Below are positions 2,396 through 22,486 of a stretch of 51,693 nt of DNA, in pieces. Below the pieces are notes generated by a model that ran no database searches, was not told the DNA's origin, and was given only the letters and a program-made list of their open reading frames with translations. The position numbers and the translations under genes were made by a program. The stretch covers positions 1 through 51,693 of the forward strand of contig JAURHM010000018.1 in the NCBI GenBank assembly GCA_030833315.1, read 5' to 3'. Positions within the stretch are counted from its first letter, which is position 1. The number at the start of each line of letters is the position of its first letter. This DNA is from Burkholderiales bacterium (GTDB lineage: Bacteria; Pseudomonadota; Gammaproteobacteria; Burkholderiales; SG8-41).

Positions 2396-3568
2396 ATGGT
2401 TGATTCCGTGGCAGCGAGCGGACCATTGGTGGGGTTAGTTGCGGGGGAGCCTTCCGGCGATTTGCTCGGAGCTGAACTGGTTACCGCATTGCGCGAGCGG
2501 CACCCATGGGCCCGCTTTGTCGGTATTGGCGGTCCCAAGATGATGGCGGCAGGCGTTGAATCCCTGTATCCGATGGAAAAGCTTTCCGTTCGTGGTTATG
2601 TCGAAGTCATCCGCCATTACCGCGAAATCATCGGCATACGCAGTGACCTGAAACGCTATTTCCTGCGTGAGAAACCTTCGGTATTTATCGGGATCGATGC
2701 CCCGGATTTCAATCTGGATCTTGAATCAGCGTTGAAGTCGCGGGGAATTCCGACCGTGCATTACGTCAGCCCTTCGATCTGGGCCTGGCGGGGCGGGCGT
2801 ATCCGCAAGATCCGCAAGGCGGTTTCGCGCATGCTCACGGTGTTTCCGTTTGAGGCCCCGATTTACGAGCGCGCCGGCATTCCGGTGAGCTATGTGGGGC
2901 ATCCTCTGGCCGACATGCTGGCCGATATGCCGGACAAGACCGCGGCCAGGGCGGAGCTGCGCATACCGGCGACCGCTCCGGTTGTCGCGCTGCTGCCGGG
3001 AAGCCGGCTCAGTGAGTTGGAGCAGTTGTCCGATGTGTTTGTGGCAGCGGCCGAGAAAATAGCTGCCGCGGTGCCCGGTGTGCGCCTGCTGGTTCCTTTG
3101 GTCAACCGGCAAACCCGGGAGTTGTTCGAGGCCGCGCTCTACCGGCGCGAATCCGGGGCACTTGAAATCACGCTGTTGTTCGGTCACGCCCATGTCGCCA
3201 TGGCAGCGGCAGATGTTGTTTTGGTTGCTTCTGGGACTGCGACGCTGGAGGCCGCACTGCTGCAAAAGCCCATGGTCATTACCTATCGCATGCCGCGGCT
3301 TAGCTGGTGGATCATGAACAGCCTTCGCTACCAGCCGTGGGTCGGTTTGCCCAACATCCTTGCAGGCGAATTTGTGGTGCCGGAGTTGCTGCAGGATGCG
3401 GCGACCCCGTGGTCTTTGTCAGCCGCTGTGATTGAATTGCTGAATGATCGCGATCGCAGAAACTCGATCGAGGAGCGTTTCGGCAAAATGGCCCTGGAAT
3501 TGCGTCAGGATGCCGCACAGCGTGCCGCAGAAGCAGTTTCCCCCTATCTGTCAGGCCGGGTTGAATGA
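2396..3568 (+). CDS. lpxB: Lipid-A-disaccharide synthase
   Basis: LpxB is the GT19-family glycosyltransferase that joins UDP-2,3-diacylglucosamine and lipid X into the lipid A disaccharide at the inner face of the cytoplasmic membrane. The 390 residues show the N-terminal [17 protein letters not shown], the [10 protein letters not shown] segment, VGHPL, the LLPGSRLSE loop and the C-terminal [10 protein letters not shown] nucleotide-binding motif, all typical of the family. ATG lies five bases behind the lpxA stop. Length matches the family (about 380-390). Confidence 0.96.
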
Positions 3569-4137
3569 CGGTCCTGGTCTGTGGCGTTGATGAGGCGGGA
3601 AGAGGGCCTCTGGCCGGGCCGGTATTTGCCGCCGCTGTGATTCTCGAAGACCCGCCAGTGATCCAGGGGCTGACTGATTCCAAAAAATTGACCGCAAAGC
3701 GGCGCGATGCGCTGGATGTGGAGATCAAGGCGCGTGCCGTATGCTGGGCGGTGGCCAGTGCTAGTGTCGAGGAAATCGACCGCTTGAACATCCTTCAGGC
3801 CAGTTTGCTGGCCATGAAACGTGCCGTTGAAGGGCTTGGCCGGCAGCCGGAAGCGATTCTGGTCGATGGCTTGTATACGCCCCGGGTTTCCATGCCGGCC
3901 CGTGCGATCGTGCAGGGTGATGCTTCGATACCGGCTATTTCGGCAGCCTCGATACTGGCCAAGGTCGCCCGGGACCAGCTGCTGCAAGATTTACATGCCG
4001 CTTACCCGGAATACGGCTTTGACCGGCACAAGGGTTACGGCACGGCCTTGCACATGGATGCCTTGCGCAGGTTGGGGCCTACCCCCGAGCACCGGCGCAG
4101 TTTTGCACCGGTCCGCTCTGCCTTAATTATTAAATAA
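3565..4137 (+). CDS. rnhB: Ribonuclease HII
   Basis: RNase HII cuts RNA in RNA-DNA hybrids and removes single ribonucleotides from DNA. The 190-residue protein opens with the signature [14 protein letters not shown] (catalytic Asp-Glu) and carries the VDG segment, [12 protein letters not shown] and the C-terminal [11 protein letters not shown] motif. It overlaps lpxB by ATGA, as in many proteobacterial lpx operons, and is the last gene of this run; a minus-strand gene converges on it 10 bases later. Confidence 0.96.
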
Positions 4138-4151
4138 AAACAAATACTTAT
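4137..4151 (-). repeat. Intergenic AT-rich element ATAAGTATTTGTTTT, copy 1
   Basis: On the minus strand this 15-mer is identical to the copy at 46181-46195 and differs by one base from the copy at 38597-38611. It lies between the convergent ends of rnhB and senB; its second to fourth bases are the senB stop codon. It also sits inside a fully A/T inverted repeat (4129-4136 and 4149-4156, 8 bp with a 12-base loop). The role is unknown. Confidence 0.45.
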
Positions 4152-5107
4152 TTAATATTTCTCATGCATTCTGTAATAAGTGAACGAAGTTTTTTTCGCT
4201 CTTGGCTGCGGCTGAGGAGCTTACGCCGTTCGGCGCATTGCTGGCGCAATGTCTTCAGGAAATCGCTGTCTGTTTCGATGCGGCGTAAAAGCCGTGCCAG
4301 CTCCCGGGCATTTCCAACCGGGTAATAACCACCATAGTCAGGACCGAGCATGCCAACGTTCCCGGGGATGCGGGAGGCAATGACCGGAACCCGTGCCATC
4401 AGGGCTTCACTGACCACATTGGCGCCCCCTTCCATTCTTGAACTGATCAGCATCGCGCGAGCCCGGGCGAGGGTTGCCAGAGCATGCGGTCTTTGCAATT
4501 CGCCGAGCCAGACGTAGCGCGGTTCCTGTTTGATCCAGCTGCGGGCTTCACCCGCAAGCGCTTTATCTCGGGCGCCGCCGATTTGCGTGATGCGGATGCG
4601 GCTCCTGGCGGGCAGATGTGAAAGTGCAGTGGCGCCGCAAAACGGATCCTTTTCGGCGCGCAAATGGCCGCTGACCACGATTTCGAAACAGGAGCGGATC
4701 ACCGGCTGACGAGGCACAGCTTCGCAGGATTGATAAATCACCCGCGTTTTGCGGCGCAAGGGCGGCGTCAGTTCGCGCAGTCCCATGTCCTGCAGTACGA
4801 TCATTCGTGTCGCGAGCTCCATGGATTCCTGAGCATTGGCATCTTCACGGATGTCGCGATAAAGGTCCGTTCCGGTAAGGGCCAGAATCAGCGGCCGTTC
4901 CGGATAACGTTCGGAGAAACGTAACACCGAGTCATGGCTGCGCCGCGCATGCAGCGCCAGCAGCAGATCGGCGCTGCGGCCGTTCCAGCATTCCTGAATG
5001 ATGACCTGATGTCCCAGCTCCCGCAGCAACTCTGCCCAACGCACGGCGGTGTTGCGATTGCCGTAGCGTGAGTTCGCTGCTGCTGGGGTAACTAATGCGA
5101 TTTTCAT
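4148..5107 (-). CDS. senB: Selenosugar synthase SenB-type glycosyltransferase
   Basis: This 319-residue GT-B glycosyltransferase belongs, by my reading, to the family first annotated as TIGR04348 and later shown in Variovorax to be SenB, which forms a selenosugar from a UDP-sugar and selenophosphate. Visible features are the N-terminal GNRNTAVRWAELLRELGH (16-33), LTGTDLYRDI (77-86), and the EX7E nucleotide-sugar motif EGGANVVSE (226-234) near the C-terminus, as in GT4 enzymes. There is no signal peptide, so it acts in the cytoplasm. It diverges from the senA-like gene 58 bases away, which is the strongest support for the name. A generic GT4 transferase is the alternative. The partner senC (a SelD-like selenophosphate synthetase) is not in this window. 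Confidence 0.8.
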   Translation of the reverse strand: MKIALVTPAAANSRYGNRNTAVRWAELLRELGHQVIIQECWNGRSADLLLALHARRSHDSVLRFSERYPERPLILALTGTDLYRDIREDANAQESMELATRMIVLQDMGLRELTPPLRRKTRVIYQSCEAVPRQPVIRSCFEIVVSGHLRAEKDPFCGATALSHLPARSRIRITQIGGARDKALAGEARSWIKQEPRYVWLGELQRPHALATLARARAMLISSRMEGGANVVSEALMARVPVIASRIPGNVGMLGPDYGGYYPVGNARELARLLRRIETDSDFLKTLRQQCAERRKLLSRSQERKKLRSLITECMRNIK

Positions 5108-5129
5108 TGGTGGGGTATCCGGCTACACT
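5101..5129 (+). promoter_or_regulatory. Candidate sigma-70 promoter for senA
   Basis: TTTTCA (5101-5106), a 17-base spacer and TACACT (5124-5129) each match four of six consensus bases. The start would fall about 30 bases before the senA ATG. It overlaps the first codons of senB, which diverges. Weak motif; listed because the 58-base gap must hold both promoters. Confidence 0.25.
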
Positions 5130-5165
5130 TCGCCAGAATATATCAAACTCAAAGACGCGTTCAAG

Positions 5166-6443
5166 ATGGCTTTTGCCGTTCCTCAAGCTGAACTGTCGCC
5201 CGGCGCATTACTCGATGCGGCGAGGGCGCGCACGCTGGATCTGCTCGGCATGATCGAGGATGGGCAATGGTTAGGTCCCAAGCTGGATATCGTCAATCCG
5301 CCGCTTTGGGAGGCAGGGCATCTGGGCTGGTTTGAGGAATTCTGGTGTCTGAGGCAGGGTTCAGCAGCGCGGCCGGCGCTGCGCGATGATGTCGATCATC
5401 TTTATAACTCCTCGCAAGTGGCGCATGCCCGGCGCTGGTCATTGCCTTTGCCGGATCCTGCGGATACGCAGCATTACCTGGCTGCGGTACGGGAGGCGGT
5501 ACGCCGTCGCCTCGAACATGATCGCGCGATCGATTACTTTGTAACGCTCAGCGCCTTTCACGAGGAATTGCACTGCGAGGCGTTTACGTATACCCGCCAG
5601 ACCCTCGGATACCAGGCGCCGGCAGGAACGGCGCAGCCGCTTTTCGGGGAGGCGTGGCCGGGTGATGTCGCAATCGACGGCGGCGTTTTCAGTCTGGGTG
5701 CGAATGATGACGGCCGTTTTGTTTTTGATAACGAGAAATGGGCACATCCCGTTGAAGTCCGTCCGTTCTGTATGGCGCGGGCACCGGTCACGAATGGTCA
5801 ATTTGCTGAATTTGTGGAGGCTGGCGGTTATGCCACGCAAAAATGGTGGAGCAACGATGGCTGGAACTGGCGCATGGAGCAGGGGTTGACGCTGCCGCTG
5901 TATTGGCAAAAAAAGGGTTCCGGATGGCAAAGACGTCTTTTCGACCGTCTGGAATCCCTGCCGGAGCATGAACCCGTCATCCATGTCAGCTGGTATGAGG
6001 CGGATGCCTGGTGCCGCTGGGCCGGCCGGCGCTTGCCGACGGAAGCCGAGTGGGAGTTTGCAGCGGCGACCGCACCCGGCGTGAAGGAGAAAAAGCGTTA
6101 TTTTCCCTGGGGCGAGGGTATTGGCGATGCATCACAAGCCAATCTTTTTGGCGTAGCCGGTCGTTGTTTGCCGGTGAATGCCTGTGCTGCCGGGGACAGC
6201 GGCTGGGGGCTCCGGCAGATGATCGGCAATGTCTGGGAATGGACATCCGACTGGTTTCAACCGTATCCCGGATTTGTCCGTGATCCATACGCCGATTATT
6301 CCGAGCCCTGGTTTGGCGACCACAAGGTCCTGCGTGGTGGCTGTCATGCGACGCGGGCGACTTTGATCCGTAATACCTGGCGCAATTTCTACAAACCCGG
6401 CCGTAACGATGTTTATGCAGGATTCCGCAGCTGCGCATTATGA
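5166..6443 (+). CDS. senA: Selenoneine synthase SenA (EgtB-like)
   Basis: SenA is a non-heme iron enzyme that joins hercynine (trimethylhistidine) to a selenosugar on the way to selenoneine, the selenium analogue of ergothioneine. The 425 residues comprise a DinB-like N-terminal domain (about 15-150) and a formylglycine-generating-enzyme-like domain (about 165-425). The three-His iron site is present: His52 in EAGHLGWFEEFW, and His132/His136 in HEELHCE. The FGE part shows the MIGNVWEWTSDW segment (352-363), LRGGCHATR and the terminal YAGFRSC. EgtB (ergothioneine sulfoxide synthase) has the same layout, so the name depends on the senB neighbour and the absence of other egt genes. The stop overlaps the next start by ATGA, coupling it to the methyltransferase gene. 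Confidence 0.82.
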   Translation: MAFAVPQAELSPGALLDAARARTLDLLGMIEDGQWLGPKLDIVNPPLWEAGHLGWFEEFWCLRQGSAARPALRDDVDHLYNSSQVAHARRWSLPLPDPADTQHYLAAVREAVRRRLEHDRAIDYFVTLSAFHEELHCEAFTYTRQTLGYQAPAGTAQPLFGEAWPGDVAIDGGVFSLGANDDGRFVFDNEKWAHPVEVRPFCMARAPVTNGQFAEFVEAGGYATQKWWSNDGWNWRMEQGLTLPLYWQKKGSGWQRRLFDRLESLPEHEPVIHVSWYEADAWCRWAGRRLPTEAEWEFAAATAPGVKEKKRYFPWGEGIGDASQANLFGVAGRCLPVNACAAGDSGWGLRQMIGNVWEWTSDWFQPYPGFVRDPYADYSEPWFGDHKVLRGGCHATRATLIRNTWRNFYKPGRNDVYAGFRSCAL

Positions 6444-7219
6444 AAAACATCACTTCTGCTGAAAATTCACGCTTCCGTGCCTTACTGAAGCTGGTGCAGT
6501 CCGCGCGTGAACGGCGCACCTCTGGGCTTTCTCTCCTCGATGGCGTTCACCTGGTCGCCGCCTATCAGATGCATATTGGCAAACCGGTCGAATTGGTGCT
6601 GAGTCGTGACGGACTGGAGAATCCCGAGGTCGCCGCGTTGCTTGCCGCGATGCCCGACGTGGATACGTTGTTGTTCTCCGATTCGTTGTTTCGTCAGCTG
6701 TCATCGGTCGCCACGCCGACAGGCATCATCGGTGTGGTGCCGACGCCGCGCGTGGAGCAGACTTCGGAAGTGACGGGCCCCAGCGTCTGGCTGGAAGATA
6801 TTCAGGATCCGGGTAATGTCGGATCGATCCTGCGGTCTGCGGCGGCGTCAGGGGTCGCCACCGTCTGTCTGTCACGACATTCGGTTCATGCCTGGTCGCC
6901 ACGGGTATTGAGGGCGGGCATGGGGGCCCATTTTGCCTTACGCATCATCGAAGGGGCCGATCTGTTGCGGCTTGCCGGCAGTTATTCAGGACGCATACTG
7001 GCTACCAGCGTCAGTGCGGGATCACCGGTGTTTGAGGCCGATCTGAAAGGTGATGTGGCGCTGCTGTTCGGCAATGAAGGTGCCGGGCTCTCGCCTGCAC
7101 TTGCCGCGCTCGCCCACCAAACCGTACATATCCCCATGCCAGGTAAAACCGAATCGCTGAATGTCGGTGCTGCTGCGGCGATTTGCCTGTTTGAACGCGT
7201 GCGCCAGCTGCGTCAGTAA
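6440..7219 (+). CDS. TrmH-family (SPOUT) RNA 2'-O-methyltransferase
   Basis: The 259-residue protein has an N-terminal substrate-binding domain (about 1-100) and a C-terminal SPOUT methyltransferase domain that uses S-adenosylmethionine to methylate a ribose in rRNA or tRNA. Family motifs are visible: [21 protein letters not shown] (motif 1, conserved Asn and Arg), [10 protein letters not shown] (motif 2) and [18 protein letters not shown] (motif 3, the knotted cofactor loop). The target nucleotide cannot be told from sequence. It overlaps senA by ATGA and its 3' end overlaps the convergent ppsR gene by seven bases. The location next to ppsR-ppsA suggests it is the ancestral neighbour and the sen pair an insertion, which is an inference. 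Confidence 0.9.
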
Positions 7220-20847: not shown

Positions 20848-20929
20848 GGCAGTTCCAGAGCGATTTTGATATGCAGCGCCTGTGCGTTCAGCGCGGCGGA
20901 TTAAGGGGCCATGCTACCATCTTCGCGCC

Positions 20930-22486
20930 ATGACAAAACGCGTTGCCCGGTGCTTGATGGTTCGCTGGCTGGGTCTGCTGCCCCTTGCCGTCGTACTCCT
21001 GCTGCTGCCGGTGATGATTTCTGTACCGGTTGCCAAGGCCGAGACCCTGAAGATCGGCTCGAAACGTTTCACCGAGTCTTATCTGCTCGGTGAAATCATT
21101 GCCGGTACGGCGCGGCGTGCAGGGGCTGCTGATGTCGAGCATCTCCCTGGATTGGGCAATTCGGCGATTCTTTTTTCGGCACTGAAAAGCGGCGCTATCG
21201 ATCTTTATCCAGACTACAGCGGCACGGTGGCGCTGGAACTTCTCGGATTAAAACAGGTGCGGCCCTTGCCGGAACTCAACAGGCTGCTCGCGACGCACGG
21301 ACTTGCAGCCGGCGTCCCGCTCGGATTCGACAATGCCTATGCGCTGGCGATGCCCGCCACAAAAGCGGACCGCGGAGGTCATGCGCTGATCAGCGATCTG
21401 CGCGGCGCGCGTGATCTGCGTGCCGGTTTGTCGCCGGAGTTTCTCAACCGGCGTGACGGTTGGCCGGCCTTGCGTGCGGCTTACGGACTCGAAGGCCTGC
21501 AAGTCCGCAGCCTCGAACATGGTTTGGCCTACGGGGCTTTGGCCCGTGAGCAGGTTGATCTCATCGACGTTTACACCACCGATCCGCAAATTACGCGGCA
21601 AGGACTCCGGTTGCTGCGTGATGACCGGCAGGTTTTTCCGGAGTACGAAGCCCTGCTGGTTTATCGCGCTGATCTTCCCCGGCGACATCCGCAAGCCTGG
21701 GCTGCGCTGCAGGGATTGGAAGGCAGGCTGGATACGGAAACTGTGCGGGGGCTCAATGCTGCGGTTGAACTGGATGGACGCAGTTTTGCGGTGGTCGCGG
21801 GGCAGTGGCTGGAAGGTGGTGTGCGGGTCACGGGTCATCGGCAGACGTTTCTCGCTGTTCTGCTGGGCCCGGATCTGGTCCGGCTGACGGTGCAGCATCT
21901 TTTGCTGGTTTGTAGTTCTTTAATGTTGAGCGTTTTAGTCGGCATTCCACTGGGGATATGGTCACAGCGTATGCCGCGAGCCGGGCGCTTGATACTGCCA
22001 GTGATGGGGGTAATCCAAACCATGCCCAGTCTGGCTTTGCTGGCTTTTTTAATTGCCGCATTGGGACAAATCGGCGCCTTGCCGGCAGTTCTGGCGCTGT
22101 TTGTCTATGCCTTGCTGCCGATTGTTCGCAGCACTGAGGCTGCCTTGGCCGGGGTTGGGCAGCCGATGCTGGATGCGGGGCGTGCATTGGGTCTTGATGC
22201 CTGGCAGCGGCTGCGCCTGATTGAAATGCCGTTGGCTTTGCCGGGGGTGCTGGCCGGTATCAAAACGGCTGCGGTCATCAATGTCGGCACCGCGACCATC
22301 GCCGCATTCATCGGCGCCGGGGGATACGGTGAGCGCATCGTGGCCGGTCTGGCCGTCAACGACCGGGATCTGATGCTGGCCGGGGCGATTCCCGCGGCAG
22401 TGCTGGCATTGCTGTTTGAGCTGCTGTTCCTCGGCCTGGACCGGTTTGTCTGGAGTGGCCGGAATGCTGTGAAAACATCCCGCTGA
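20930..22486 (+). CDS. Fused substrate-binding protein/permease, glycine betaine-type ABC importer
   Basis: A 518-residue fusion. An N-terminal signal or anchor (about 12-37, ending AKAE) precedes an OpuAC/OsmX-type binding domain (about 38-300: LKIGSKRFTESYLLGEI, LYPDYSGTV, DVYTTDP). A permease domain with five or six membrane segments follows (about 310-518), with the EAA loop at ALGLDAWQRLRLIEMPLALPG and NVGTATIAAFIGAGGYGE. In OpuB, OsmU and EgtU systems these domains bind quaternary amines such as glycine betaine, choline or ergothioneine; here the binding domain comes first. No ATPase gene lies next to it; rpoE follows. The substrate is unknown. ATG at 20930 was preferred to GTG at 20882 because the protein then starts just before the hydrophobic segment. 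Confidence 0.85.
   Translation: MTKRVARCLMVRWLGLLPLAVVLLLLPVMISVPVAKAETLKIGSKRFTESYLLGEIIAGTARRAGAADVEHLPGLGNSAILFSALKSGAIDLYPDYSGTVALELLGLKQVRPLPELNRLLATHGLAAGVPLGFDNAYALAMPATKADRGGHALISDLRGARDLRAGLSPEFLNRRDGWPALRAAYGLEGLQVRSLEHGLAYGALAREQVDLIDVYTTDPQITRQGLRLLRDDRQVFPEYEALLVYRADLPRRHPQAWAALQGLEGRLDTETVRGLNAAVELDGRSFAVVAGQWLEGGVRVTGHRQTFLAVLLGPDLVRLTVQHLLLVCSSLMLSVLVGIPLGIWSQRMPRAGRLILPVMGVIQTMPSLALLAFLIAALGQIGALPAVLALFVYALLPIVRSTEAALAGVGQPMLDAGRALGLDAWQRLRLIEMPLALPGVLAGIKTAAVINVGTATIAAFIGAGGYGERIVAGLAVNDRDLMLAGAIPAAVLALLFELLFLGLDRFVWSGRNAVKTSR

Follow-up and report, generated by a model that had tools for sequence, protein, structure and literature searches.

A divergent senB/senA pair as a probable selenoneine locus fed by a distant selD in a Burkholderiales bacterium

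The divergent senB/senA pair found in a Burkholderiales bacterium (contig JAURHM010000018.1 of assembly GCA_030833315.1) is very probably a SenA/SenB-type selenoneine locus, with a complete pathway fed by a distant, shared SelD. The window, that is, the whole stretch of 51,693 nucleotides analysed here, is contig C95 of a genome of 3.10 Mb that is 98.1% complete in 105 contigs. We demonstrated the genes, their families and key residues, the genome-wide presence of each pathway step, and the co-occurrence of the steps across genomes. The original prediction of a likely selenoneine locus is supported by the family scores, by egtD and selD, and by this co-occurrence.

The senB/senA pair and its products

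The gene for the selenosugar synthase SenB (GT-B, family 4; 319 aa) occupies positions 4148-5107 on the minus strand, and the gene for the selenoneine synthase SenA, a long-form protein of 425 aa with DinB_2 and FGE-sulfatase domains, positions 5166-6443 on the plus strand. Both genes start with ATG. They had been predicted to be intact and to face away from each other, which was borne out by their open frames, by family scores that greatly exceed chance expectation, and by their residues. The 58 bp that separate the two ATG codons (5108-5165, assigned to neither strand) form a putative divergent promoter region common to both genes. Within it, the blocks 5116-5129 (TATCCGGCTACACT) and 5137-5148 are mostly kept in five close relatives (alignment with L208-L212), and a consensus scan of 4900-5400 returned, against a shuffle mean of 0.2, a single candidate match resembling sigma-70 (5164-5137, minus strand). 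On the left, rnhB (3565-4137, plus strand), named by eye from its translation and not by a family scan, is convergent with senB and marks the edge of a genomic slot described below. The right edge is a TrmH/RlmB-type RNA methyltransferase gene (6440-7219, plus strand) outside the selenoneine pathway; its best model, TIGR00186, scored 97.5 bits, under the cut-off of 160, and its ATG overlaps the stop codon of senA (ATGA, 6440-6443).

SenB of the window scored 415.5 bits on TIGR04348 (cut-off 300) and aligned to the solved SenB chains with 210.5 (8jjq) and 210.2 bits (8fbx). The EX7E motif of family GT4, claimed from the first inspection, is present as E226/E234. Together with N17, T20, and K153, this pair corresponds to N20, T23, K158, E231, and E239 of Variovorax SenB, to which PMC10891094 assigns donor binding and catalysis; all five residues are kept. 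The sugar motif reads EGGANV and not EGGAHV, which places the window outside the narrow Variovorax-like SenB group as delineated in PMC10891094. Among the 17 SenB proteins found by model search, the position carries N in 16 and H in one, so that N is the usual form outside the Variovorax-like group; the N/H ratio among the best 80 of at least 565 loci gives no prevalence, as the search patterns favoured EGGAN. Mutants of H235 are described as retaining partial activity (PMC10891094).

SenA of the window, which comprises DinB_2 and FGE domains by Pfam, scored 495.9 bits on NF041186 (cut-off 420) and 93 bits on the signature TIGR04373 (cut-off 71), and remained under the cut-offs of both the EgtB model TIGR03440 (342.5 bits, cut-off 360) and the OvoA model (144.5 bits, cut-off 400). 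The three-His iron site proposed earlier, His52/His132/His136, held up in the alignment, where each of the three positions holds His throughout, in all four reference enzymes and all 78 other rows, EgtB-side rows among them. Position 409 is Tyr; it is Asp in EgtB 4x8b and Phe in the second EgtB reference, 6qki. The Asp of 4x8b we take to have a role in thiol binding. A stretch of approximately 45-47 residues (query 307-353) makes the query a long-form SenA; it is kept by OvsA and most rows, and absent from the small group of Variovorax SenA and from some other senB-linked rows.

Placement of SenA in a tree, by which the original prediction was to be checked, answered in part. The tree contained 83 proteins, 72 of them SenA/OvsA-like rows, with Variovorax SenA (8ryz) and OvsA (8ux5) among them, and 11 EgtB-side rows. 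The 72 rows, of which the query is one, form one group at 98/98 support. Trees in which the EgtB rows were held to the query (p 0.11) or to its six-member group (p 0.193) were, in contrast, not rejected by the AU tests, which let the EgtB rows join the query branch; we read this as an attachment point of the distant EgtB outgroup that is still variable. The query and five senB-linked slot relatives constitute one group at 100/99 support, and the same five stayed with it after the three longest EgtB-side paralogues had been removed. The tree agrees with SenA identity without proving it, and the weight is carried by the family cut-offs, the gene context, and egtD.

Supply of selenophosphate and hercynine

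The original prediction held that the window contains no selD/senC or egtD and that the genome supplies selenophosphate and hercynine from elsewhere. The first statement was confirmed, and the gene content of the genome supports the second. The only egtD match in the genome is located on contig C3 (411 bits), and the match between its product and the solved EgtD spans residues 12-317 of 321; the three neighbours scanned (a D-Ala-D-Ala endopeptidase, a response regulator, and one without a match) included no egt gene. The only selD match over the cut-off, on contig C51 (414 bits), has an in-frame TGA at the catalytic position, codon 21, in the context GGGUGCK, and lies near mnmC and the selenouridine synthase gene mnmH. 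For the decoding of this TGA, selA (571 bits) and selB (423 bits) are present side by side on C3, followed by tRNA-Sec. The genome is thus equipped to channel selenophosphate into both selenoproteins and tRNA. The 98.1% complete genome yielded only three FGE-domain matches, of which one is SenA and the others are standalone ORFs (283 and 338 aa). No EgtB- or OvoA-type enzyme was found among the three, and neither was a second hercynine-using enzyme besides SenA, which makes SenA the only partner seen for EgtD. Thus, of the observations that were to speak against selenoneine, neither an EgtB-type enzyme nor a lack of egtD or selD was encountered. At 98.1% completeness and in 105 contigs, the genome may still have a second selD or an egtB in its unseen part.

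By analogy with their characterised relatives, SelD, SenB, EgtD, and SenA would here catalyse the reactions of one pathway. The housekeeping SelD encoded on C51 would provide selenophosphate, also for selenocysteine and tRNA selenouridine synthesis, and SenB would form a selenosugar by attaching the selenium to a UDP-sugar. EgtD from C3 would trimethylate histidine to hercynine. SenA, as an iron enzyme, would then combine hercynine, selenosugar, and oxygen into a selenoxide, the breakdown of which would release selenoneine. These are the reactions established for the Variovorax enzymes (PMC9814287; PMC10702425; PMC10903977).

The components of the pathway also occur together in other genomes. 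In the class set, SenB exceeded the cut-off in 17 of 232 genomes, and senA, selD, and egtD were all over the cut-off in each of the 17; in G198, the single senB-negative genome searched for these three genes, selD alone was present, without senA and egtD. The two sen genes are divergent and less than 1 kb apart in 16 of the 17, the exception being G193, where they are 12 kb apart and not divergent. In 13 of the 17, selD lies within approximately 3.5 kb of senA or senB, and in 15 the selD match is embedded in a 755-905-aa open reading frame; two of these frames were scanned, and both are oxidoreductase-SelD fusions. Among the 17, a TGA inside the over-cut-off selD match occurs solely in the genome of the window. 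TGA-holding selD matches were found in the order set, in G277 from the same genus and in G236, G243, and G285.

In the order set, 21 of 60 genomes were SenB-positive, and selD was over the cut-off in 20 of these 21 as opposed to 25 of the 39 senB-negative genomes. The corresponding counts for egtD were 16 of 21 and 9 of 39; its presence in nine senB-negative genomes means that egtD alone is no pointer to selenoneine. Where senA adjoins senB, egtD was over the cut-off in 14 of 15 genomes, the fifteenth having a 257-bit fragment at a contig edge, and where no senA occurred in the stretch fetched, in one of five. G233, whose senB ends at a contig edge and which was left out of the counts of 15 and five, has egtD and no selD over the cut-off. 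The presence of senA in this set was judged within the fetched stretch, genome-wide senA searches being limited to G000 and G091. Over both sets, 29 of 30 senA-bearing genomes have egtD over the cut-off and the thirtieth has the contig-edge fragment, 13 of the 30 senA genes being recognised by a model built in this analysis and not by NF041186. Hence, the presence of egtD tracks senA and not senB.

The genomic slot and senB without senA

BLAST with the genes of the window revealed the same gene order in close relatives: lpxD-fabZ-lpxA-lpxB-rnhB, senB, senA, the RNA methyltransferase gene, ppsR, and ppsA, the flanking genes being named by eye from their translations in the window, without a family scan. 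We defined a slot locus as one with senB no more than 2.5 kb away from rnhB, lpxB, or the methyltransferase gene, and 47 of the 97 loci fetched, after removal of three duplicates, were of this type, with senA within 3 kb in 22 and no senA in 25; these counts, which come from loci of unequal length selected for their similarity, are no estimate of prevalence. Nor is the share of senB-only loci, because 80 of the loci are the best 80 of at least 565 found by patterns favouring EGGAN. Both sides of the slot are visible in 18 of the 22 senA loci and in 12 of the 25 senB-only loci. None of the 47 slot loci has selD within the stretch fetched, and a missing senC is therefore normal here. The original prediction was titled as a locus without senC, which is true and yet ordinary: the absence of senC beside the pair is the rule for the lpxB/rnhB-methyltransferase slot and no oddity.

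The 25 slot loci that keep senB without senA belong to Thiobacillus, Sulfuricella, Sulfuriferula, and relatives. Among isolates, Sulfuricella sp. T08 and Sulfuriferula multivorans TTN are senB-only with both slot sides, and Thiobacillus thioparus DSM 505 is senB-only with the methyltransferase side alone. The frames of senB and the methyltransferase gene overlap or are at most 50 bp apart in 18 of the 24 senB-only slot loci measured. Of eight senB-only gaps inspected, L222 and L225 are too small for any ORF; in the six gaps with ORFs, none of the longest ORFs of at least 40 aa (up to three per gap) matched the SenA model as a remnant of senA. The gap is occupied by a different gene in L220, L223, L224, and L291, by eye one for a pentapeptide-repeat protein.

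These senB-only genes are intact, and pair tests indicate that purifying selection acts on them. The five catalytic and donor-binding residues are kept in every one of the 29 senB-only proteins from loci with sufficient flank, in the slot as well as beyond it, and dN/dS ranged from 0.13 to 0.24 in nine senB-only pairs, compared with 0.10-0.16 in four senA-linked pairs. On a SenB tree built by a quick method, with many weak forks and no fixed root, the label switches between senA-adjacent and senB-only at least eight times, losses of senA being indistinguishable from gains. In the residue check and this tree, 17 class rows were labelled senA-adjacent without measurement, the G193 row wrongly so, and the tree omits L260 and L285 (split by a stop), L305 (contig edge), and the duplicates L289, L292, and L295. 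The senB gene of L260, from Poribacteria, carries an in-frame TGA; for a SECIS-like hairpin after this TGA, folding was no better than that of shuffles.

No egtD match was found in G245, G280, and G259, which show both slot sides and no senA in the slot, nor in G274, which is senB-only outside the slot; G285, senB-only in the slot, has egtD. For senB-only loci outside the slot, the neighbours scanned offered nothing convincing as a conserved gene that might use the selenosugar. One group of these loci has lnt and selD as neighbours, and another has an HlyD/ABC/MacB export set. Tentatively, SenB could have a job of its own in the slot, with SenA gained or dropped, and the selenosugar or a derivative of it could be a metabolite in its own right, here perhaps beside selenoneine, an idea to which we give somewhat less than an even chance.

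Alternative readings and known systems

The FGE enzyme might instead be an ovoselenol-type synthase that joins the selenosugar to histidine as OvsA does, with egtD serving something else, which we regard as improbable. OvsA is nested within the long-form SenA rows and, at 267.0 bits, is level with Variovorax SenA (266.6 bits) against the query; however, its branch (99/96 support), composed of OvsA and two G193 proteins, leaves the query out. The query's score over the SenA cut-off, the lack of any other hercynine-using enzyme seen in the genome, and the presence of egtD over the cut-off in 29 of 30 senA genomes, the thirtieth being the contig-edge fragment, also count against it. It is still harder to believe that the enzyme is an EgtB making ergothioneine next to an incidental senB, even though its best score with a solved structure is to EgtB (4x8b, 272.6 bits) and the AU tests let the EgtB rows attach at its branch. 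The query falls on the SenA side of both family cut-offs, whereas five of seven paralogues scanned from relatives scored 557-600 bits on the EgtB model and lie on the EgtB side of the tree, the remaining two passing neither cut-off. The Tyr at 409 in place of the Asp of 4x8b is a weak argument in the same direction, given the Phe of 6qki, and the divergent senB-senA arrangement recurs in 16 of the 17 class-set genomes and many fetched loci. The family cut-offs and the gene context led us to reject an EgtB or OvoA identity of SenA, a point on which the AU tests were not decisive.

We consider it just as hard to believe that SenB takes another chalcogen donor, such as thiophosphate, to yield a thiosugar or ergothioneine. 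The locus lacks senC, the senB-only loci indicate that SenB is not always near SenA, and one of 21 senB-positive genomes (G233) has no selD over the cut-off. Against these points stand the selD and full selenocysteine apparatus of the genome, as well as the distribution of selD (20/21 senB-positive versus 25/39 senB-negative genomes). The original prediction had named another donor as an alternative to supply from elsewhere; with selD and the selenocysteine genes present there is no such need, and we rejected it as a necessity.

Read as a selenoneine locus, the pair belongs to a pathway that looks complete and ordinary for its lineage, and such a pathway apparently needs no selenophosphate synthase gene of its own alongside. 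The first sen clusters were found through genes overlapping selD (PMC9814287), a search by which pairs like the one described here would be missed. In the titles and abstract openings of a limited literature collection, we found no report of senB-only or senC-less loci. The lineage comparison sets SenA, which occurs with egtD, apart from SenB, for which this is not always so, and thereby makes the idea of selenosugars as end products in sulfur-oxidising relatives of Thiobacillus a testable one.

The senABC cluster of Variovorax paradoxus was reportedly presented by Kayrouz et al. in 2022, and OvsA (8ux5), a selenoxide synthase for ovoselenol, is said to have followed from Kayrouz et al. in 2024. 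The substrate of OvsA is presumably histidine. The query resembles EgtB (4x8b, 6qki) in its DinB and FGE architecture and three-His iron site, 4x8b being the top-scoring solved chain, but differs in its score under the EgtB cut-off, in Tyr409 (Asp in 4x8b, Phe in 6qki), and in the adjoining senB. With OvsA it shares the long form of the FGE enzyme, the C-terminal GFR-(S/T)-C signature, and a place in the same tree; it is set apart by its position beyond the OvsA branch and by the egtD gene of its genome. The senABC cluster is described in PMC9814287 and PMC10702425. In contrast to that cluster, the pair of the window has no adjoining selD/senC, selD being distant, TGA-containing, and near mnmH; its SenA keeps the 47-residue stretch, and its SenB has EGGANV in place of EGGAHV. 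Like the Variovorax system, it combines the SenA and SenB families, with their domains and catalytic residues, and genes for hercynine and selenophosphate in the same genome.

senB-only loci beside the conserved neighbouring genes

In 25 of the 47 fetched loci that have senB near rnhB, lpxB, or the RNA-methyltransferase gene on one or both sides, among them L222, L225 (duplicated by L289), L231, L290, and L291, no senA occurs within 3 kb. The hosts are Sulfuricella, Sulfuriferula, Thiobacillus, and their relatives. The catalytic residues of SenB are retained in these loci, and dN/dS lies between 0.13 and 0.24 across nine senB-only pairs. A genome search returned zero egtD matches in three of the hosts (G245, G280, and G259). 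Between senB and senA of the window, the block TATCCGG(A/C)TACACT and a AATATAACAAAC-like block (window 5116-5148) are largely kept in five relatives, and these blocks probably represent the divergent promoters or a regulator site.

Unusual senB genes and sen loci in other genomes

One Poribacteria senB gene contains a single in-frame TGA (L260:8433-8435), exactly at a column where 53 of 111 homologues have Cys and two Poribacteria relatives also have Cys, encoded by TGC. The TGA might encode selenocysteine in SenB, be a mutation, or be an error. Folding of the region 3' of this TGA against shuffles revealed no unusual hairpin (z 0.33). In a Latescibacterota senB, an in-frame TGA is located within a variable linker (L285:8388-8390) and appears to be a mutation or an error in sequencing.

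The SenB-like protein of G248 (L307:9475-10545) scored 229 bits, under the cut-off, and forms a very long branch. selD was found in this genome, senA was not found in the fetched stretch, and egtD was unmatched. This protein is perhaps a related glycosyltransferase with a different job. G233, where a contig edge cuts at senB (L305), has egtD and is the only one of the 21 senB-positive genomes without selD over the cut-off. In G193, an OvsA-like enzyme, a SenA, two selD copies, egtD, and senB all lie within about 23 kb of one contig (C4; L060 and L058), and this organism could possibly make both selenoneine and ovoselenol.

Other genes in the window's genome

Contig C3 bears selA, selB, a thioredoxin-reductase-like gene (under the cut-off of the thioredoxin-reductase model), and tRNA-Sec in one cluster (L308:1122-6207), about 17 kb away from egtD.

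The window also encodes a betaine-type fusion of substrate-binding and permease domains (20882-22486), whose binding domain scored 129 bits against ProX and 118 bits against EgtUC, an ergothioneine transporter. The gene lies 14 kb from senA, to which it has no known link.

Long and short forms of SenA

The alignment revealed a stretch of about 45 residues (residues 307-353 of the window's SenA; window 6084-6224) retained in this protein, OvsA, and most SenA rows. The Variovorax SenA that has been characterised lacks this region, as do its close relatives, and the best-studied SenA is thus a short form.
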